This document shows, piece after piece, positions 2,787-26,771 of a DNA stretch of 64,000 nucleotides. The position numbers were made by a program, and so were the translations under genes. The stretch is taken from NCBI GenBank assembly GCA_903813345.2, contig CAIIXF020000011.1, forward strand, positions 11,692,842 through 11,756,841, read 5' to 3'. Every line of letters starts with the position of its first letter. Position 1 is the first letter of the stretch. The notes beneath the pieces are model-generated. The model ran no database searches. It saw only the letters and a list, made by a program, of their open reading frames with translations, and was not told the origin of the DNA. The DNA is from Owenia fusiformis. Its lineage: Eukaryota; Annelida; Polychaeta; Sabellida; Oweniidae.

Positions 2787-4650
2787 AGACACAACAAAAT
2801 AAATTTAAAATGGTTTTATTTATATTCTTTTTCAACAATCATCTTCAACTATGATAACAAATGTGCACGACTGGGCTTTCAAAATAATTGTAAAGGATGT
2901 TTGCACACAAACGTTTTATGTATGACATGTCAGAATATGAAACTATACATGGTATGCCTTAGAGATGATGTTCAAACAAAAATGCTTAACTCTGCCATAC
3001 TCATAGCAAAATGGCGCATGTGCAAGTACATGTATAAACATACTAGAGCTCTGTGTTTTTACAATAGTAATTATGAGGGATTTGATCTGGGAAATCTCAC
3101 AAGTATGATATTTATATTATCCGAGGGATAAACCTCATATCATCCCTACAGGTGAATAACGACCATGGTCAAGAACAATATCTAATTAATCCTCTTTTAA
3201 ATGAGAGAAAAATTTTGGAAAATATGAAAATTAGTTAAAAATGAAAAGTTTTTGAATATATACTCGGGTTGATATTCGTATTATCCCTGATATCTTCCCT
3301 ATCCAAATATGTGATTTATCACTTGCTATTATATACCTGATATTGCTCTGACCATGGTATAAACTACGATATAGTTCTGAGCTCATATATTCATAATACA
3401 AAGCTAATAAAGTACAGACATGCCATGTTGCATTAATGCATCTATGCCTATATTCACAAGGGTATTTCCAAACGCAAGACGCACGACGTGAATAGCCCTA
3501 TCTCATTTACCAGCTACAAAGCTCACTTTCTAATGACTCGTATTGAACCTCATGACCATATTACCAACATCCAATAGCCTTTGGTGTCATAATTATTTGC
3601 ATTGACGATCTAAGTGTTAAAACAATTACCAAGTATAGGTTTCCACCAAAACACAATCAATACTGATCGTTCACTGACCGCACGTGTACTAAAATACCAT
3701 TTCTATGGCATTCTGTTTTTCCTATAAACATCAACAACGATACCTGAAAATGAGAAAAATAATGAACAGTACACGCTTTATAAATTAGGAAAAATTCGAA
3801 TCAACAATGCTGTTACAGGCCTCCTAGACTTCCATCAACGCGAACGTCAGTTCTGATCTCGCGAATTACGTTCCTTGCGCTCGAACCACGATTCTCACAT
3901 TGCGAACGTGAAATCTTTAATCGCGCACCACCATTTCCTTGCTCCCGAACATATTCCTCCACTCGCGAACAGAGATCCCACGGACCATATATTCAGGGAG
4001 ACTATATTTACTCTGACACCGGTTTAAAACGCCTCGGCAGTTGTCTTGTGGATGCTTTGTCATACATATTTATTATTACATGGACACTGGACACACATAC
4101 ATTGAAGAAACTGTATAAGTAATGTCTATTAGATTATTTTCCTGATCTAGATCTTGTTTTACAACAAGCCTATTTAAAAAAACATAAACTAGTTCAGCTT
4201 CAGACTCTGCAGAGCCCTCTACTGTAAAAATGTCAGCAAATTCAATACAATCTTAAAGATGTAAATGATGCCCTGGGAGTAGTGATATCAATAGATCATT
4301 TATATAAGATTCAAATGATGAATGAAATGGAGACTGCTGTAATAAGCACTTCCAAAACACATCTCATCAGAAATATTTGAACTCGATCCAAAGGATTTCT
4401 AAAAAAGAAATGACTAAGGTAAACAATTTGAATAATGGAGTTGTTGAAGCACCAAGTAGATCCAAATCAAAAACCATATAGCCAGTGACACACTTAGTAC
4501 AATATATTTATAATTCAGTGTCTAAACCATATAATAAATCCAGTTTCATATGCAATCTCAATAAAAGTTTTTTATGTAGCCTACTTATTGACCCAGGGTC
4601 ATGTTTAAATTACAATAAAGAATCCTGTATCATTTTTATTGGACATTTTA
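2787..4650. other. non-coding stretch with one CpG-rich degenerate repeat
   Basis: Mostly AT-rich unique sequence with no supported gene. At about 3837-3985 a local CpG-rich patch repeats variants of CGCGAAC (CGCGAAC, TGCGAAC, CTCGAAC, CGCGAAC) at roughly 20-25 bp spacing. The origin of that patch is unknown. Confidence 0.4.
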
Positions 4651-18144: not shown

Positions 18145-18578
18145 CACTGGTGATCCACTCGATTACGCTGGTTACCGAAACGTCGAAGGTACAATTTTTC
18201 TTTTTTTCCTTATTTCACACGTTGTTGGCAGAATTCCCACGACTCAAACGCGTATCAGTATCATATGTTAAGACGATGTATATATATTTGCGAACAAATA
18301 GTTCAGAAGACAACAGAATCGTCGATTTAATTCCTTACTTAAGTTACATAAACGGTATATCGAAATACAGTATGCCGTTTATGTAACTTAAGTGAGGAAT
18401 TAAATCGACGATTATGTTGTCTTCTGGGCTATTCTTTCGCAAACACATACATTTTCTAAAACATATGATACTGACACACGTTTGTTAGAAAAAATGTCGT
18501 GGTGATTCTGCCTACAACGCGTGAAATAAGGAAAAAAGAAAAATCGTACATTTTGCGTAATCGAGCGGATCACCAGTG
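18145..18578. mobile_element. fold-back element, CACTGGTGATCC ends
   Basis: CACTGGTGATCCACTCGATT mirrors GCGGATCACCAGTG at the right. The two halves are inverted copies around a centre at about 18362 (TAAACGGTATATCGAAATAC), the middle of the stem being near-perfect. No clear target duplication is seen. The CACTGG/CCAGTG ends echo the 'GGATCCGCC' family but the body differs. Confidence 0.75.
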
Positions 18579-18915
18579 AACAGAGAAGGGGCAAGGCAAC
18601 AGTCTAGTATATTTATGACAGATTAGACTGTTTAAGGTATCCACCTGGTTCTTTCATTCAGTATGTGAGTCATAACTAAAATCACTGTAAAAGTATTACT
18701 TCAAATATTACCCTAAAACCAGTAGTTTACATTTACAGTTGAACACCCCAAATGACCGTTAACCTAAGTAATTCGAATACCACCTGTGGCATAATTATGG
18801 CATCATGGCATCTTGGAGATTAAGGTCAAGGATTGAATTCCATAACCTGGCTATAATACAGATCGCATCATGAATTTTGATGAATTACATTGCTCCCCCA
18901 GGATCATGCCATGTA

Positions 18916-19474
18916 CGGGGTGGTCAAAAAACGGAAACCCTGCATTTTCCTCATAGCTTTGTCATTTTAAGGACTGCTCCCTAATATTTCACACATTTGT
19001 AAATCATTCTATTTCCTACTACCCTACTATATTTCATGACCATCAGACTGATAGTCACAATTCTACAGCACTTTGAACAACAGGCTTCATGTTTGGCATT
19101 ATTGCGCTGTAGGCAAACCTGCACAGTTGTCAATGATCCAAATGGATTCCTCAGCAGATATGGCCTGAATGATACAGATAATCTCACTTTTGAGGTCTGC
19201 AATTGTCCTGAGGTTATTCTTATACACTCTGTCTCTGCCATATTCCCATAGGTAGGGACATTTTAGACGACATGTGCAGGTTGGTCTACAGCGCAATAGT
19301 GGCCATCGGGAATGTTCTTTAAAGTGCTGTAACACGGTGACTGTCAATCATTTGGTCATGAAATGTGGTAGGCTGGTAGGAAATTGAGTGATGTACAAAT
19401 GTGCAAAGTTATTTCTTAAAATGACAAAGATATTAGGAAAATGGTGTTAGGGTTTCCAGTTTTTTACCACCCTG
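18916..19474. mobile_element. mariner-type element, CGGGGTGG ends
   Basis: TA CGGGGTGGTCAAAAAACGG at the left and CCAGTTTTTTACCACCCTG TA at the right form decayed TIRs. Inner sequence is shared with 6260-6738, including a second inverted pair (ACAGCACTTTGAACAACA and TTCTTTAAAGTGCTGTAA). Confidence 0.8.
19138..19245 (-). pseudogene. mariner-type transposase C-terminal fragment
   Basis: The minus-strand frame includes YGRDRVYKNNLRTIADLKSE followed by IICIIQAISAEESIW. 'D+VY.NN.RTI.DLK..I' is a hallmark of the C-terminal region of many invertebrate mariner-like transposases. About 36 residues survive; no DDE residues are present. Confidence 0.65.
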
Positions 19475-20004
19475 TACATAAAGAATATGACGTCTTATTT
19501 ATCTGGATTTGTGAAAAAGACTTTCTGATTATATGATTTGTTTTCTTAATAAGTTTTTATTATTTGATGTTAGCAGCATTACGATTACAATAGATATATA
19601 GTGCAATTATACAAGATTCGCCATAATAGTGATTTAATCAGTTGCAGATTATTTCTGCCAAGAGCATCATCCGAAATACATCATAATTTTGGTTTGATAA
19701 GTTTCTACATTTTATGTAGATTCTTTGTCCTGTTATACAATTAAACAGGAACCTCCTAGAAAATTCAGTCAGAATTTTTGATTATTCGTCAGTAAATTAT
19801 TCAGGTGGTCTTACTTTTTAATATTTTCATTGTTTGACACGATCGGATTAACTATAAAATAATGAAGTTACAGTTTATTACATGGTTTCCAAAAGTGATG
19901 ATTTGTTTTTATGCAAATAACATGGGATCAGAAATTATATAGCTGGTTTGAATTTTGGTACATTTGGGTTCATATCGTTAATAATTTAAAACTGATACGT
20001 AAAC

Positions 20005-20220
20005 GTTTTGGAATTGATATTTTAATTCCGATTAATTAAGTTGGGAAACACCATGGGAATTCCTCCCTCTGATCACATGTCTAATGACGTAGAGTCCCCT
20101 CGTGTGTTAGCCATTCAGTTAGCCTTTGTTGTCGAGGCAGCATGTTATAATATTTATACAGATTTTGAACTATGTCAGTTTGTCAAAAATTTGAACTATG
20201 TCAGTTTGTCAAAAAATTTC
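20005..20220 (+). repeat. Ngaro split direct repeat A1
   Basis: Starts GTTTTGGAATTGATATTT and matches A2 (24668-24857) closely. A1 is 216 bp against 190 bp because TTTGAACTATGTCAGTTTGT plus its CAAAAA tail (26 bp, 20164-20189) is repeated in tandem at 20190-20215. It probably holds the promoter for the full-length RNA. Confidence 0.93.
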
Positions 20221-20389
20221 AAAGTTTTGGATAAACAGTTTAACTCTCATTGACGGAGTAATTCAATGAAAACGATTAATTCTGGACCTACGTCGATGAA
20301 AATACATAGTTAAGTATAAGACGAAAAATGGATGTTATTATTTGAACTATGTTGATTTGACACATTCTGGATTAACAATATAATTCAAT
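20221..20389 (+). other. Ngaro 5' leader between A1 and gag
   Basis: A 169-bp AT-rich leader. It contains a further degenerate copy of the A1 duplication word (TTTGAACTATGTTGATTTG at 20340-20358). No ORF of note. Confidence 0.6.
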
Positions 20390-21580
20390 ATGAGATACTG
20401 TAACAAATGCGGGAGAAAACACCCTCCGCCAACGGGAAAAAAGTGCAAATTGACACTCCCAGCGACTACAGACGATGAAGATGTAGGTGTTATATCGGTG
20501 CACGAAAATGAGCAGCCAGCTGCAGGCGTTAATGCGAGAAACCCTGACGTCGATGACGACTCTCAAACCTCTTTGACTAAGCAAGACGTTCAGGAGTTAT
20601 TTGGACAATTGGCGGACGAATTTTGCCAAAAGTTGAAGAAACATCACGATGTTTCCAGCGTTCCATCCAGGCCAGATACCAGAGACACGGCAGCGCACGG
20701 GGCAGAGACTGTTACAAGTACACCCCGATCCGATATTGAACATCCAGTGCGATCCAGCGGATCCGACGTCGCTCAGACGGAACAAGCATCGAACTCCGAT
20801 CATGGACTTGCCGACATTAATCTCAACGCTTTACGAAGGGACTCCAAGCTCGTAAAAACGATCGACAGAAGGCTTCAAGATTTATTACAATCTGACACAG
20901 ATGACAGTGAGGACGACGAAGCCAACGATGAAAAAGGACTCAAGAAATTTCGAGGTAAGCGGTCTAAAAGATCAGGCAGGATGCGAACAATAAATGACAT
21001 AGCCAAGATACCAGTAGATTGGCCTCATTTTTATGTATACAGAGGTGCAGATTGCAAATCCGCCACCTATGATACGTTGACTGTACCCGAATTTTCCTTC
21101 GGTTACATGGAAATAGTGAATAACACTGAAAATGGAGATATAAAGTTGCGGATGTTGGAACATTTTCAACAGGTTATGCTCCACACTATGCATTACCAAT
21201 GGGATGATGTGCGCCATTGCCACGGTGTGATACTGGGAAAGATTGAACAAGGAATCCTAACATGGTCGAGTGATTTTGGTCGATACTTTGACAGTTTCGC
21301 TAAAGTTTCAAGAATAGACCAAGATAACAAATTGTCTAAAAGAACCGCCACAGCAAAACCTGCACTTGGCAAAACCAAATCTTCTGATAAAATTTACATC
21401 TGTCACGCCTATAATAATGGCTCGTGTGATCAGGCTTCTGATCACAATAAAGGGAATTTATTTCTTCGCCATGCGTGCAGGTTTTGCTTTGGCAGTTCTG
21501 GTCATGTAAATTTGCATCGGCACGCTGAGTCGGAATGTAAATCAAAACAGTCAAAATTGAGTCAATCAAATTACAATTGA
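20390..21580 (+). CDS. Ngaro ORF1, gag-like nucleic-acid-binding protein
   Basis: A 396-residue protein starting at ATG (MRYCNKCGRKHPPP). The N-terminus has a small Cys cluster (C4, C7, C19). Residues about 60-210 are acidic, serine-rich and probably disordered, with a basic KKFRGKRSKRSGRM patch near 190. The C-terminus holds ICHAYNNGSCDQASDHNKGN then HACRFCFGSSGH and HRHAESEC, a Cys/His zinc-finger array typical of the gag-like ORF in DIRS and Ngaro elements. It probably packages element RNA. It ends at UGA (21578-21580), directly in frame with the pol frame that follows, so readthrough would give a gag-pol fusion. Confidence 0.88.
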   Translation: MRYCNKCGRKHPPPTGKKCKLTLPATTDDEDVGVISVHENEQPAAGVNARNPDVDDDSQTSLTKQDVQELFGQLADEFCQKLKKHHDVSSVPSRPDTRDTAAHGAETVTSTPRSDIEHPVRSSGSDVAQTEQASNSDHGLADINLNALRRDSKLVKTIDRRLQDLLQSDTDDSEDDEANDEKGLKKFRGKRSKRSGRMRTINDIAKIPVDWPHFYVYRGADCKSATYDTLTVPEFSFGYMEIVNNTENGDIKLRMLEHFQQVMLHTMHYQWDDVRHCHGVILGKIEQGILTWSSDFGRYFDSFAKVSRIDQDNKLSKRTATAKPALGKTKSSDKIYICHAYNNGSCDQASDHNKGNLFLRHACRFCFGSSGHVNLHRHAESECKSKQSKLSQSNYN

Positions 21581-23389
21581 CTGACCGCAGCATCCAGTGA
21601 AAACGATTCACATTCCGATAATGTTGTTGATTCAAAGTTACACACAGCTGATTCTTATTTGCTTCTCAATGCTTCAGAAATTGAATACTGTCACGGCAAT
21701 TCAGCCTCTCAAGACAACTGGCTTGATCTTTATTTACAAGTGGCTTCATATAACCAGCCTAATTATATCGGTGCTAAATGCCCCGTGCCCTCTACTTTAA
21801 ACATCTCATTTTGGCGCCGGGAATTGGTTAATTATTCTGATATTCATTTACCGGATTTTTTAGAATTCGGTTGGCCGATTAGTTATTCCAGAGAGAGTTG
21901 GCCACATGGCTGTTACAAAAATCATATCAGCGCGGAACTCTATTTTGACCATGTTCAGAGATATATAGACAAAGAAATATCTTATCAAGCGCTCATAGGA
22001 CCTTTACAGACAGACCCTTTTAGCAGCGTAGGCCCTGGCATTGTTATTTCACCCTTGCAGACTGTTCCAAAGAAAGACTCTGACGACCGCAGGGTAGTTC
22101 TTGACCTTAGTTGGCCCCGGGGTGTTTCAGTTAATGATGGAATTATAAAAGGGGAGTTTTTGGGTGAACCTTTCCACTTAACATATCCCAGGGTTGATGA
22201 TTTAGTAACGTTGGTTTTGAAACATGGTCCTGGTTGTTTGTTATATAAGCAAGACTTGAAACGGGCGTATAGGCAGATTTGTGTTGACCCTCTAGATTTT
22301 CCATTATTAGCGTTTCAGTGGAATGGCTCGCTTTATATTGACAGAAGAGTTCCTTTTGGTCTTAGGACCGGCAGTTTAATGTGTCAAAGAATGACGGATG
22401 CCATCGTCTATTTACATCAAAAAGCGGGTTTCCAGGCTGTTAATTATATTGACGATATTGCTGGTGTTGACTCTGTCCAAGAGGCTAGTCGTGCATTTCA
22501 GTCCCTTTCAAAGTTGTTGTCTGATCTGGGTTTAGAGGATTCCAAAGAAAAGCGAGTTTTACCGTCAACGATTATGACATTCTTGGGGGTCGAGTTCGAC
22601 ACCGTGAAAATGCAATTATCAATTCCGCGTTCTAAGATTAATGATGTTTATCAGATGATCAGTAGCTGGCGGTCTAAAAAAGTTGCCTCCTTGAAAGAGT
22701 TACAGGTTCTCTTGGGAAAGTTGCATTTTATATCGCAATGCGTTCGACCCGCTAGGTTATTTGTTGGTCGTATGCTAGAGGCGTTGAGAGTGGCGTACGG
22801 CACAGGTACTGTGTTTCTCGATGAGGAGTTTCAAAAAGATCTTAGGTGGTTTTTCAATTTTCTGCCCGATTACAATGGTATTCATATGTTATCTGAAAAT
22901 TCATCAAGTGATTATGAATTATACGTAGACGCATGTCTGACCGGTTGTGGTGCAATCATGCAAGGGAGATTTTATCATGCGATCTTTCCATCGTTCATTC
23001 TAAAGGAAGATTTGACTATTGTGCATTTGGAAATGCTCAATGTTTATGTTGCTTTACGGAATTGGTCACATTTGTTCAAAAACAAGAGGGTGTTGGTACA
23101 TTGTGATAATGAAGCATGCGTCTACATTTTGCGATCAGGAAAATCTCGGGACTCATTTTTAATGAGGTGCGTCAGGGGAATTTGGCTCATGTGTGCTGAT
23201 CTCAATTTTCAGTTAGATTGTACTCATATAAGTTCTGCTGATAATTATCTGGCTGACACTTTGTCTAGGTGGCCAAGAAGAGATACATCGTTTGACTTAT
23301 TTTCGCAAAGGTGTGAGGACTTTGGCTTTTTAGAGTGTGTTGAAGATTATGTGTCTGATGAAATGTTTCTAGTTCCGACTTGGATTTAA
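21581..23389 (+). CDS. Ngaro ORF2, reverse transcriptase and RNase H
   Basis: The frame opens right after the gag UGA in the same frame and runs to a stop at 23387. Numbered from the leucine codon TTG at 21659, RT motifs are YKQDLKRAYRQ (Asp 199), VPFGLRTGSL (about 231-240) and NYIDDIAGVD (catalytic YIDD 263-266). RNase H follows with LYVDACLTGCG (Asp 424), VHLEMLNVY (Glu 458), VHCDNEACV (Asp 483) and NYLADTLSRW (Asp 533), so all four catalytic acids are present. The first in-frame ATG is at 22379, inside RT after the first catalytic Asp, so a normal AUG start cannot make a working enzyme. Readthrough of the gag UGA (context UGA-CUG) or reinitiation is needed. It makes cDNA from element RNA. 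The domain calls are certain; the expression route is inferred. Confidence 0.92.
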   Translation: MTAASSENDSHSDNVVDSKLHTADSYLLLNASEIEYCHGNSASQDNWLDLYLQVASYNQPNYIGAKCPVPSTLNISFWRRELVNYSDIHLPDFLEFGWPISYSRESWPHGCYKNHISAELYFDHVQRYIDKEISYQALIGPLQTDPFSSVGPGIVISPLQTVPKKDSDDRRVVLDLSWPRGVSVNDGIIKGEFLGEPFHLTYPRVDDLVTLVLKHGPGCLLYKQDLKRAYRQICVDPLDFPLLAFQWNGSLYIDRRVPFGLRTGSLMCQRMTDAIVYLHQKAGFQAVNYIDDIAGVDSVQEASRAFQSLSKLLSDLGLEDSKEKRVLPSTIMTFLGVEFDTVKMQLSIPRSKINDVYQMISSWRSKKVASLKELQVLLGKLHFISQCVRPARLFVGRMLEALRVAYGTGTVFLDEEFQKDLRWFFNFLPDYNGIHMLSENSSSDYELYVDACLTGCGAIMQGRFYHAIFPSFILKEDLTIVHLEMLNVYVALRNWSHLFKNKRVLVHCDNEACVYILRSGKSRDSFLMRCVRGIWLMCADLNFQLDCTHISSADNYLADTLSRWPRRDTSFDLFSQRCEDFGFLECVEDYVSDEMFLVPTWI

Positions 23390-24389
23390 TTTTGCTTATG
23401 TTTCAGGTCTGAAAGCTGACCTCAGACGTAAAGTTCGCCGTAGACAAATTTCGGCCTTTGCGGACGGAACCAGGGCAAATCATAAGTCTCAATTCAAATC
23501 TTATTTGATGTTCTGTGAAGTGACTAATTTGACTCCTCTGCCGGCAACAGTTGACTCATTATGTATGTACGCCGAGTTTTTGACGAGGACTTTACAATGC
23601 CCAGACTCAATAGCTAATTATCTAGCAGGGGTTCATACTTTACATAAACTTTTATGCTTGGATAGTTCAGCATTCCAAGCCTTTCGTTTGCAACTTACAA
23701 TTAAAGGGATTAGAAAGCAATCGTCGCATTTCCACTTACAAAAAGCACCAATTACAATCCCGATTTTACGGGCTATCATTCACACATTATCGAACAATCG
23801 CGACCCTTTGCACACGGTTCTCAAGTGTCTCTTTCTCATTGCCTTTTTCTCGTTCTTACGTAAGTCCAACCTTTTACCGCCTGGGAACCCCGTTCTCCAG
23901 CATGAGTTACAACATTTACGGCGCAAAGATGTCTTGCGCACTTCTAATGGCCTTTGTTTAGTTGTCAAAAGATCAAAGACTATACAATGTAATGATCGGC
24001 AGCTAATTATTCCAATTTCAGTAATGCAAGATTCTGAATTATGCCCCGTAAAATCCTTTGATGACATGATCTCTATTGTCCCTGCCGGGCCCACTCATCC
24101 TCTATTTGCATTACCTAGCAAAACGAGCTCTGTTCGCAGCTTAACGCAACCACGTGCTCTTGCAGCTCTCAGGCTCATTATACGGGGTCTAGGTCTTAAT
24201 CCGCAATCTTACACTTTGCATTCGTTTCGACGCGGAGGTTGTACCAGCGCCTTTATGGCTTCTGTTCCAGTTGAACTAATTAGACTACACGGCGACTGGC
24301 GTTCTCAGTCGTATTTAAAATACTTTTGCCCATCTGTTTCACACAGATTTCTAGTAACACAACGAATGTCAGTTTTGCTTGATAAGTGA
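23373..24389 (+). CDS. Ngaro ORF3, tyrosine recombinase
   Basis: The frame opens at 23373, overlaps the last 17 nt of pol in the +1 frame, and ends at 24389. The part before the first ATG (23508) already looks like the N-terminal DNA-binding region (KADLRRKVRRRQISAFADGT), so the real protein begins further upstream. Counting from TTG at 23505, the catalytic set is Arg 119 (FSFLRKSNLL), a Lys in VVKRSKT (155-158), His 239/Arg 242 (LHSFRRGGC), the LHGDWRS box (262-267) and the likely nucleophile Tyr 273 (SYLKYF). The enzyme inserts circular cDNA by site-specific strand exchange. The AUG-less start implies +1 frameshifting, reinitiation, or splicing into the acceptor-like TTTGCTTATGTTTCAG ending at 23406. 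Confidence 0.9.
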   Translation, partial: FRLGFNFAYVSGLKADLRRKVRRRQISAFADGTRANHKSQFKSYLMFCEVTNLTPLPATVDSLCMYAEFLTRTLQCPDSIANYLAGVHTLHKLLCLDSSAFQAFRLQLTIKGIRKQSSHFHLQKAPITIPILRAIIHTLSNNRDPLHTVLKCLFLIAFFSFLRKSNLLPPGNPVLQHELQHLRRKDVLRTSNGLCLVVKRSKTIQCNDRQLIIPISVMQDSELCPVKSFDDMISIVPAGPTHPLFALPSKTSSVRSLTQPRALAALRLIIRGLGLNPQSYTLHSFRRGGCTSAFMASVPVELIRLHGDWRSQSYLKYFCPSVSHRFLVTQRMSVLLDK

Positions 24390-24487
24390 TTTATAGTACA
24401 CTATTGTTCCATGGTTTGGCGATTCGTATAGTCTACACCTAGTGGCTAAACGTTTGACTCGCTACTTTCAATAATGCAACTTTTTTG

Positions 24488-24667
24488 GCGGTTGTTTTTT
24501 AATTACGTAACTACATATACACTTATTATATAATCTTTAGGTAGTTAGTCAATTAGTCATGGTATAATCATTTATTTCAATTAGTATTTAGAAATATATT
24601 ATGTAACATTATGTAATATCGCCAAACAAAACTCATTCTTGTTTGTTATTTGTTTATCAACGTAATT
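24488..24667 (+). repeat. Ngaro split direct repeat B1
   Basis: 180 bp, starting GCGGTTGTTTTTTAATTACG and ending ATCAACGTAATT. Identical by eye to B2 (25792-25971). Its 3' edge touches A2 with no spacer. Confidence 0.93.
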
Positions 24668-24857
24668 GTTTTGGAATTGATATTTTAATTCCGATTAATT
24701 AAGTTGGGAAACACCATGGGAATTCCTCCCTCTGATCACATGTCTAATGACGTAGAGTCCCCTCGTGTGTTAGCCATTCAGTTAGCCTTTGTTGTCGAGG
24801 CAGCATGTTATAATATTTATACAGATTTTGAACTATGTCAGTTTGTCAAAAAATTTC
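24668..24857 (+). repeat. Ngaro split direct repeat A2
   Basis: 190 bp, matching A1 without the 26-bp tandem copy. The B1/A2 join probably corresponds to the junction of the circular cDNA used for integration. Confidence 0.93.
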
Positions 24858-25791
24858 CCAACCCTCCCACCCTGTTCTTATATTACTTATCCTTGCCTAT
24901 TTTTGCTAGTTATAATCTTTGTTCGTTTTTCGAATGGTGTACTGGGGGGGGGGGGTAAATGCAACTATAAAGTGTTACGATATTTATTGACCCTTGATTT
25001 TACGCACACTTATAACCTTATTAGCCTTCCGTTGCTAAGTGGTACTTCAAGTCATGACATCTTGTTTGTTTTCTTCATTTGTCACGATGATTACTCTAAA
25101 TCATCATAGTTTACGTACAGTATGATTAAGATTCGAATTGAATTTATTTTCTGTTTCGATTGTTACTGTATGTTGTATGTATTCTTGTCAGCTAATAAGC
25201 ATAGAGCCATTAACGCTCTTAAGCATTCATGTTGTCGTGCATGTTGTAAAACATTTTATTTGTAATTTTGTACTTGTAATTTATGTGTTCATATTTTTTA
25301 ATAGCGTGTAAACCAATGCGCATGTAGCACATTTTTATGAATGTCTTTTAGCCTTGCCGAATGCCAATGTAGGAAGCATTTTACTACACGGTATTCTACT
25401 GGTTGAGTCACTGTTCTTGATTGTCTTTATTGTTACAGTTTAGTCATACAAATGAATCCGCATCGGTATTTGTATTGTAACTCTATGTAATTCATATGCT
25501 TGCAGTTACACACTGTTCATTTATAGTTTTTGATTGCATTTATATCTGTTATTATGTATGTATAAGGTGTCACGTAACGTGACGTTTTTGTAAATGTATT
25601 TGTACCTGTTTCACAGTTTTTACTTGATTCACAGTTTTTTACGTACACTTGCACTTTTACATCACAGTTCATGTCTGCCTTAGCGCTTTTGAACATTGTA
25701 TGTACAGTTTTTATTGTACTCTCATTTATTTGAGCTATGCTCATTCTGTTCTTGACTGCCTCTGGAGCACTGTTCATAGTGGAACAAGTGC
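24858..25791 (+). other. Ngaro A2-B2 spacer (3' non-coding region)
   Basis: 934 bp with no supported ORF. It includes a 12-G tract (24944-24955) and T/GTA-rich sequence. In this element class the 3' region is retained for copying the split repeats. Confidence 0.75.
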
Positions 25792-25971
25792 GCGGTTGTT
25801 TTTTAATTACGTAACTACATATACACTTATTATATAATCTTTAGGTAGTTAGTCAATTAGTCATGGTATAATCATTTATTTCAATTAGTATTTAGAAATA
25901 TATTATGTAACATTATGTAATATCGCCAAACAAAACTCATTCTTGTTTGTTATTTGTTTATCAACGTAATT
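25792..25971 (+). repeat. Ngaro split direct repeat B2, 3' end of the element
   Basis: 180 bp, identical to B1. It ends AACGTAATT, after which host sequence ATTCTAAAAATC begins. Confidence 0.93.
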
Positions 25972-25993
25972 ATTCTAAAAATCATCTACACCG

Positions 25994-26015
25994 AGAACGC
26001 TATATATAGCGTTCT
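25994..26015. repeat. perfect 22-bp palindrome
   Basis: AGAACGCTATA followed by its exact complement, centred on an ATATAT core, 22 bp beyond the retroelement's 3' end. Function unknown. Confidence 0.8.
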
Positions 26016-26771
26016 AAACAAAAAATATGTATTTTTCAACTAACATATCTAACCAATTATATGAAGACAATCCAAATCATTGGAATTTTTTTAACTTAGT
26101 CAATTTTGCAATGTTATTTATAAACAAACAACAGTCATTCTGATACTCGTCACGTTTTCAACAAGAAATACCATAATATTTATAGAAAGGAGCTTAATAT
26201 GCCATGATTTCTTACGATGTACAACAAGAAGATAAGGTGATCTTCCACAGCTGAGAAGCTGAGCTGCATACAAGCCGCGTGTCACTCTTGAGTAAAACAC
26301 AACTAAACGTTGATTTTGCTCTTACACGTTTCTGCGTAGTGTGAGTTGTCAAAAATTCTTCTATTGTAACATCAGGCAAGTTTTGATTAATTGCTTGATT
26401 CACCCAGGCAAGAAGTAATTACACTGGTTAAGTGTATTCAAATATTGCATGCTAATCTAGCGCGGAATTCAATTATAGAGATACCCGATTGAATAGATCA
26501 TCGTATTGCTTTATTACGCGATGAAAATATTTTGTTTTGAACGACAAACTGCCGATTTATGACCGATTTTTTTTATCTAAAATGCCTATTTTTATTTAGT
26601 TGTTATTTTATCACCATGTTAAACATGGCAGATTTTCACTCTCTCGAAGGAAAATGATTTTGCACATCAACGTTATTTCTTTTGTGAATATTACTTAAAA
26701 GCTACACGAATATGAATGTACGAATGGTAGATTTCTGATCTGATAATCTTAGTAAGAAGAGCGAAATTGGT
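26016..26771. other. non-coding stretch, nothing recognised
   Basis: AT-rich host sequence; no exon or repeat end supported. Confidence 0.4.

Follow-up and report, generated by a model that had tools for sequence, protein, structure and literature searches.

A single in-frame UGA between gag and pol of an Ngaro-type retrotransposon of Owenia fusiformis and probable stop codon readthrough in related lineages

The retrotransposon and its gag-pol junction

In this work we analyzed a 64,000 nucleotide (nt) stretch of the genome of the annelid Owenia fusiformis (assembly GCA_903813345.2, contig CAIIXF020000011.1, positions 11,692,842–11,756,841 of the forward strand; below, the window) and found in it a retrotransposon whose gag and pol genes lie in one reading frame and are separated by a single UGA codon. 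From a comparison with related elements of the same genome, we propose that Gag-Pol is probably made by readthrough of UGA, as a trait of several lineages of tyrosine recombinase (YR) retrotransposons in this genome.

Comparison of repeats within the window revealed that the element spans from direct repeat A1 (19997–20192) to direct repeat B2 (25792–25974), with all of its features on the forward strand. A1 is 98% identical to A2 (24660–24855), and B1 (24488–24670), which adjoins A2, is 99% identical to B2 (97% over 194 nt in a second comparison). The Ngaro layout was assigned because such split repeats (A1 ... B1 A2 B2) are present; judging by the repeats and the gene order it belongs to the Ngaro type of YR retrotransposons, and the reverse transcriptase (RT) tree used below contains families of this genome only. 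Like Ngaro retrotransposons (A1-[open reading frames, ORFs]-B1A2B2; PMC8547959; here and below the literature is cited from those parts of the sources that were available), it has split direct repeats, gag, RT and RNase H without a methyltransferase (none is present among the Pfam matches listed for it) and a putative YR in the last position, but its B2 starts 936 nt past A2.

The gag ORF (20390–21577, 396 codons) ends with a zinc knuckle-like Cys/His stretch and a 13-codon tail. Its product gave no matches in a Pfam search up to E = 1 and is weakly homologous (24–31% identity) to the Gag proteins of loci L008, L009, L003 and L004 described below. The pol ORF (21581–23386, 602 codons, stop codon TAA at 23387–23389) encodes RT, with an RVT_1 match above the Pfam cut-off (E = 1.3e-13), and RNase H, whose RT_RNaseH match is just below it (E = 3.3e-5; 24.4 bits against 24.8). 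The YR frame (23373–24386 from stop to stop, 338 codons, the first ATG being codon 46) contains, as judged by eye, the motif HSFRRGG...GDW...Y (HxxR...GDW...Y). Its match to Pfam Phage_integrase is below the cut-off (E = 0.17); the YR proteins of L003 and L008 have no match to this family, and that of a distant YR family, L077, matches it with E = 3.2e-9.

Two stop-to-stop frames, 20384–21580 (398 codons, first ATG at 20390) and 21581–23389 (602 codons), are in register with each other, and the border between them is the UGA at positions 21578–21580 (context AAU-UGA-CUG-ACC), the proposed readthrough site. They bear out an earlier analysis made from the letters of the window alone (below, the sequence-only reading), according to which only this UGA breaks a common gag and pol frame. 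The same analysis correctly placed the first in-frame AUG of pol at 22379, downstream of the first catalytic Asp of RT. The pol head (21581–22378, 266 codons) is open and devoid of AUG, all 12 in-frame ATG of the 602 codons being located from codon 267 onward (p ~0.0008 under random placement). The Asp at 22253–22255 is part of a D-L-x-R-A-Y sequence, which we take to be the motif with the invariant RT Asp, and the Asp residues of the presumed YIDD motif begin at 22451. Therefore, translation beginning at 22379 would leave out the first catalytic Asp. The pol head, open from the stop, also contains YLLLNAS (21656–21676), to which LLLNP corresponds in L008 and L009; the LLLN motif is common to all three. 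A 25-nt inverted repeat (21341–21365 and 21475–21499, 92% complementary) is located in the zinc knuckle region of gag, about 80 nt before the UGA.

Gag-pol junctions in related families

In a quick RT tree, the nearest clade unites the window element with L003, L004, L008 and L009 (support of 100 in the Shimodaira-Hasegawa-like approximate likelihood ratio test, SH-aLRT). A single stop at the same place as in the window was directly observed in related families. The L008 junction, GCA-UGA-CUA-GAC, lies just 3' of the Gag zinc knuckle, with pol in the gag frame; L009 has GCA-UGA-CUA-GAA and pol likewise in the gag frame, which is broken 78 codons later. GCA-UGA-CUA-GAC is retained in L031, an additional copy of the L008 family that is itself damaged. 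In a fourth family, L034, also damaged, ACG-UGA-CUA-GAU is found three codons past the last Cys of the knuckle. Altogether, the UGA-CUA-G context was found in L008, L009, L031, L034, L054, L056 and L062.

Between L008 and L009 residue identity amounts to 63% in the tail of gag and 39% at the head of pol, yet the eight bases UGACUAGA are the same in both. The number of synonymous substitutions per synonymous site could not be estimated for this pair (the program returned -1); as we take this value to mean saturation, the identity of UGACUAGA is unlikely to be a matter of mere inheritance without selection. In L008 the gag, pol and YR genes are all in one frame, the separators being UGA at 1237–1239 and UAA at 3121–3123.

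The two other members of the clade are organized in a different way: their pol is in the +1 frame and overlaps gag by 92 nt in L003 and 44 nt in L004. The sequence CCG-AGU-AAG-UAA/UAG at the end of gag is common to L003, L005 (C10, C8) and L004 (C12) and also contains GTAAGT. This sequence resembles GCG-AGU-U, which we take to be the +1 frameshift site of Ty3.

The distribution of junction types was then established for a wider set of families. Of 465 first-look candidates revealed by a pol search of the genome, 119 were scored; 66 of these matches lie in fetched stretches (including one each inside L034 and L007), and 53 were unread. The RT tree comprised 39 chosen representatives, and the stop codons of 38 were compared (L061, closely related to L066 and damaged in gag, was excluded). 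The representatives L009, L028, L040, L041 and L066 themselves have damaged gag or pol. Loci L031, L034, L056, L060, L062 and L067–L072 were read and not counted as separate families (L071, with a +1 frame and UAA, would add one overlapping family); L002, L005–L007, L010–L012, L014, L018–L020, L023–L025, L029 and L030 were omitted as broken or redundant, and six of eight further stretches (L032, L033, L035–L038) gave no usable junction.

In eight of the 38 representatives gag and pol share a frame interrupted by just one stop, while the other 30 have overlapping pol frames. The in-frame stops are UGA-CUA or UGA-CUG in five cases, UGA-UUG in one, UAG-G in two and UAA in none. Five in-frame families lie outside the window clade, L048 (UGA-CUG-AUU), L054 (UGA-CUA-GAA), L051 (UGA-UUG-GAA), L059 (UAG-GGA-CAC) and L065 (UAG-GAC-AGA), and a YR-like frame was recognized by eye downstream of pol in each of them. 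On well-supported branches of the RT tree the in-frame state requires at least four changes, and it is present in at least four lineages. The gag stop is UAA in none of the eight in-frame families vs. 24 of the 30 overlapping ones (Fisher p 6e-5), and UGA-CU is found at this place in five of eight vs. none of 30 (p 1e-4), both p values ignoring kinship. If UGA-CU and UAG-G are taken together, the numbers are 7/8 and 1/30, the single overlapping case being L004 (UAG-GGC). What the in-frame families have in common is a single stop, its location and mostly its context. Three families located on one side of a branch with SH-aLRT 94, L046, L049 and L058, have a pol shifted to the -1 frame with respect to gag, whereas most others have +1.

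Comparison with known readthrough sites

According to the proposed model, most ribosomes would terminate at the UGA at 21578–21580 and release Gag, and a minority, aided by the 3' CU(R), would place a near-cognate aminoacyl-tRNA on UGA and enter the RT/RNase H region. The resulting Gag-Pol fusion would be taken into the particle via its Gag part. The occurrence of readthrough, its efficiency, the residue inserted and the role in packaging are what we infer here.

UGA CU serves as a core motif for readthrough in both fungi and human cells, and A in the third place increases its effect (PMC4207609). UGA-CUAG provides efficient readthrough in four mammalian genes, OPRL1, OPRK1, AQP4 and MAPK10 (PMC4132726), and its high readthrough is also reported in PMC12233894; in OPRL1 the three bases after C are critical (PMC4132726). 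The same heptamer is present in L008, L009, L034 and L054, while the window has CUGA, and in L008 and L009 the last sense codon is GCA, as predominantly in OPRL1. The cellular genes yield C-terminal extensions (PMC4132726), whereas here a whole polymerase would be added.

Among viral readthrough sites, type II includes UGA-CGG and UGA-CUA and type III UAG-G (PMC3542737). Type II sites are known from alphaviruses and some plant viruses, and their UGA-CUA variant is present in L008, L009, L034 and L054. Most of them are reported to involve a 3' RNA structure, a stem-loop starting about 8 nt past the stop; in the window none was found, and the stop is followed by CUG. The gammaretroviral gag-UAG-G-pol junction (PMC3542737) is similar in its single in-frame stop, and UAG-G is found in L059 and L065. 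The Candida retrotransposon Tca2 (PMC2194720) has a single in-frame UGA between gag and pol, as in the window. Both gammaretroviruses and Tca2 use an integration enzyme different from that of the elements described here.

We found no published description of gag-pol readthrough in Ngaro or DIRS elements, although the original Ngaro papers of Goodwin and Poulter were outside the search results, and a prior description is possible. The accounts of these elements, in the parts available, present ORF overlaps or a same-frame YR without gag-pol readthrough, and the term 'read-through' in the available text of PMC12440569 and PMC9341512 refers to transcripts.

Evidence weighing against readthrough and alternative explanations

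Several findings weigh against the proposed readthrough. DNA searches of the genome with 21500–21700 and 20193–21700 revealed no further copies spanning the stop, and the nearest copy, on C6 (L002), matches only from ~21655 onward. L037, a gag relative that has suffered damage (61% identity, with six stops within the match), extends into the junction region, but alignment of its tail with 21531–21720 gave a score of 99, below the highest of 200 shuffles (102.5), and the codon at the stop was not readable; its knuckle frame terminates in UAA-AUU, though the tail aligns no better than chance. Other copies of the window family in this genome are thus uninformative as to the conservation of UGA-CUG.

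Since just one copy of the window family is readable across the site, and its context is two bases off UGA-CUAG, the UGA could be an ordinary nonsense mutation in a copy with formerly fused gag and pol. Gag, pol and YR are otherwise open, however, the split repeats are 97–99% identical, and the stops of the sister families are located at the same place and followed by CU. Moreover, the longest open frame among the 119 scored pol matches is 763 amino acids, hence none of them is a fused gag-pol frame. A nonsense mutation is therefore rather improbable.

The context itself speaks less clearly for the window copy than for its relatives. UGA is followed by CU, but G-A occupies the next two places instead of A-G; given the critical bases of OPRL1 and the helpful A in the third place, its stop may be less leaky than those of the relatives, or the copy may be in partial decay. 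The claim of readthrough is accordingly weaker for the window copy than for the group. In addition, the gag-UGA-pol junction of Tca2 gave no readthrough in a yeast reporter (PMC2194720).

The sequence-only reading also envisaged a conserved stem-loop within 60 nt after the stop. It is absent in the window, where the 60, 100 and 150 nt following the stop fold no better than shuffled sequences (z-scores +0.2, +1.4 and +1.6) in plain folding, in which pseudoknots were not sought. The same regions of L008 are mildly stable (-1.7, -1.3 and -2.0), and that of L034 is stable at 150 nt only (-2.8); the remaining in-frame families show no z-score below -0.8, and L003, one of eight overlapping controls, has -1.8. 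An Rfam search of 19900–26100 gave four weak matches, all short of the gathering score, and no selenocysteine insertion sequence (SECIS) was among them. The latter result bears on the assumption that UGA, which is able to specify selenocysteine, is decoded in this way; alternatively, pol might have a promoter and an RNA of its own, given that the gag-pol junction of Tca2 carries a minor promoter (PMC2194720). Two in-frame families use UAG; taken together, these alternatives appear extremely unlikely.

The absence of AUG in the pol head turned out not to be conserved among the in-frame families: downstream of the stop, AUG first occurs in frame at codon 111 in L008, 98 in L051, 39 in L065 and 6 in both L048 and L054. 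In the two latter families, with AUG five codons after the first codon of pol, reinitiation could serve for pol translation, and in the window separate translation of pol might begin at CUG 21581, which abuts the stop there and in L048, or at TTG 21659, as suggested by the sequence-only reading. CUG is the best-known non-AUG start codon, but reinitiation after an ORF as long as gag is generally poor. The codon after the stop is CUA, an unusual start, in L008, L009, L034 and L054; the Leu corresponding to TTG 21659 is kept in L008 and L009 with the codon TTA, which does not support a start there; and the LLLN motif, located 5' of the first AUG, is conserved between families. Separate translation of pol in the window element is thus very unlikely.

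The statistical support for readthrough is limited by the structure of the sample. Only four independent pairs of families are available on well-supported branches, putting significance out of reach; on average the expected direction is seen in 2.8 of four pairs for non-UAA stops and in 2.0 of four for UGA-CU, and the opposite direction in none. The stop contexts were grouped only after the stops had been inspected, and the agreeing second copies L062, L067 and L068 are 97.5–99.7% identical near the junction and add little information. In 37 of the 38 representatives (the exception is L009) the pol frame extends unbroken to the gag stop or past it, a proportion partly built in by the choice of loci with readable junctions.

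Taken together, the gag-pol fusion by readthrough predicted by the sequence-only reading gains from the single in-frame stop of the sister families, its site and its context, while the copies of the window's own family proved uninformative and the stem-loop was absent.

Two partial copies are 96–100% identical to the window element, pointing to recent activity or duplication: C6:13188363–13191578, which comprises pol from ~21655 and most of YR, and C12:8800971–8801165 (195 nt, corresponding to window positions 23370–23564). B1-A2-B2 ends with no gag or pol matches listed nearby were revealed at C4:4932295–4933849 and C9:12572300–12574675 and look like solo repeats or deletion derivatives. In viral contigs, searches with one protein and with an alignment gave no relatives. 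Outside the element, the window contains two nested palindromic regions whose inverted arms are long and imperfect (18145–18578 and 18911–19479), possibly foldback transposons.

Splice-like sites and expression of the YR gene

Splice-like sites were scored with general consensus frequencies, and the mid-gag and YR-start stretches were selected after a first look at the sites. The top-scoring of the 249 GT sites in 19997–24400 is the donor-like GAG/GTAAGC in the middle of gag (20952–20960; intron start 20955, phase 1). At the start of YR an acceptor-like site, TTTTGCTTATGTTTCAG/GT (23390–23408; exon start 23407), ranks sixth of 249 AG sites, and its phase matches that of 20955.

Similar sites are widespread in the other families. 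Of 36 families, 28 have the best donor-like site of their gag frame in phase 1. In the region 800–500 nt upstream of the gag stop the best donor-like score is at least 5 in 18 of 33 families, compared with 3% of 119 pol windows (300 nt) and 12% of codon-shuffled stretches, and the best site is in phase 1 in 26 of 33 vs. 63% of codon-shuffled stretches. Strong phase-1 mid-gag sites were found in the window element, L008, L009, L014, L015, L017, L026, L039, L046, L047, L049, L050, L052 and L058; there is no clear mid-gag donor in L003, L004, L022 and L048, among others, and L021 and L054 have it in phase 0. In the initial 100 nt of the YR frame the best acceptor-like site scores at least 3 in seven of 16 families, as opposed to 12–14% of 274 other windows (Mann-Whitney p 1.4e-4); in 12 of the 16 it occupies YR phase 1. 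In distant families this signal partly overlaps a conserved SRLQ run of pol, which possibly accounts for some of it. A search of the genome for a spliced Gag(N)-YR retrocopy (23-base junction pattern, up to three mismatches) gave no matches, and none of the YR matches obtained starts at the proposed acceptor.

The same donor might serve pol if the UGA were bypassed by splicing from 20955 to an acceptor in the pol head, the best being 21678 (TCTCAATGCTTCAG/AAAT), with an in-frame Gag(N)-Pol as the product. No donor-like site of the element scores higher than 20955, 21678 ranks fourth among the acceptor-like sites, and the two match in phase; a phase-compatible acceptor-like site (score of at least 3, within 400 nt after the stop) is also present in L009, L015, L027, L051 and L059 of 17 elements scored, and the Pol of foamy virus comes from spliced RNA (PMC2194720). 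On the other hand, the AG beside the LLLN motif in L008 and L009 is, by eye, in a different phase, and acceptor-like scores of at least 3 are found in 9%, 12% and 3% of 100-nt windows after the stop (32–33 windows each), compared with 12% of 194 pol windows. Such a bypass would require neither a leaky stop context nor a common frame, and the open pol frames of the survey suit translation better than splicing. This explanation for the window element appears improbable.

As donor-like sites and acceptor-like sites at the YR start are enriched and acceptor-like sites after the gag stop are not, splicing looks likely for YR, with a Gag(N)-YR fusion as the presumed product, and looks unlikely as a general route to pol. 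We put forward, tentatively and as a possibility that falls short of being probable, a joint scheme in which all proteins of YR retrotransposons come from one gag AUG: Gag by termination, Gag-Pol by recoding and Gag(N)-YR by mid-gag-to-YR-start splicing that removes pol. The recoding part of this joint scheme would alternate between lineages, as UGA-CU(A/G) readthrough, UAG-G readthrough or +1/-1 overlap.

Significance

How pol and YR of DIRS and Ngaro elements are expressed from one RNA is a question left unanswered by the published accounts, which, in the parts available, describe overlapping or same-frame ORFs. If the single-AUG scheme is true, both enzymes would enter the particle fused to Gag, and retrotransposons would join vertebrate genes and alphaviruses in using the UGA-CUAG signal. 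If readthrough takes place as proposed, annotation must allow for it, otherwise intact copies will be scored as broken, and O. fusiformis would offer a natural series of junctions (UGA-CUA, UGA-CUG, UGA-UUG and UAG-G) inside one host. It would also provide a testable answer to the question of pol expression, and a class of animal retroelements would join the users of weak stop codons.

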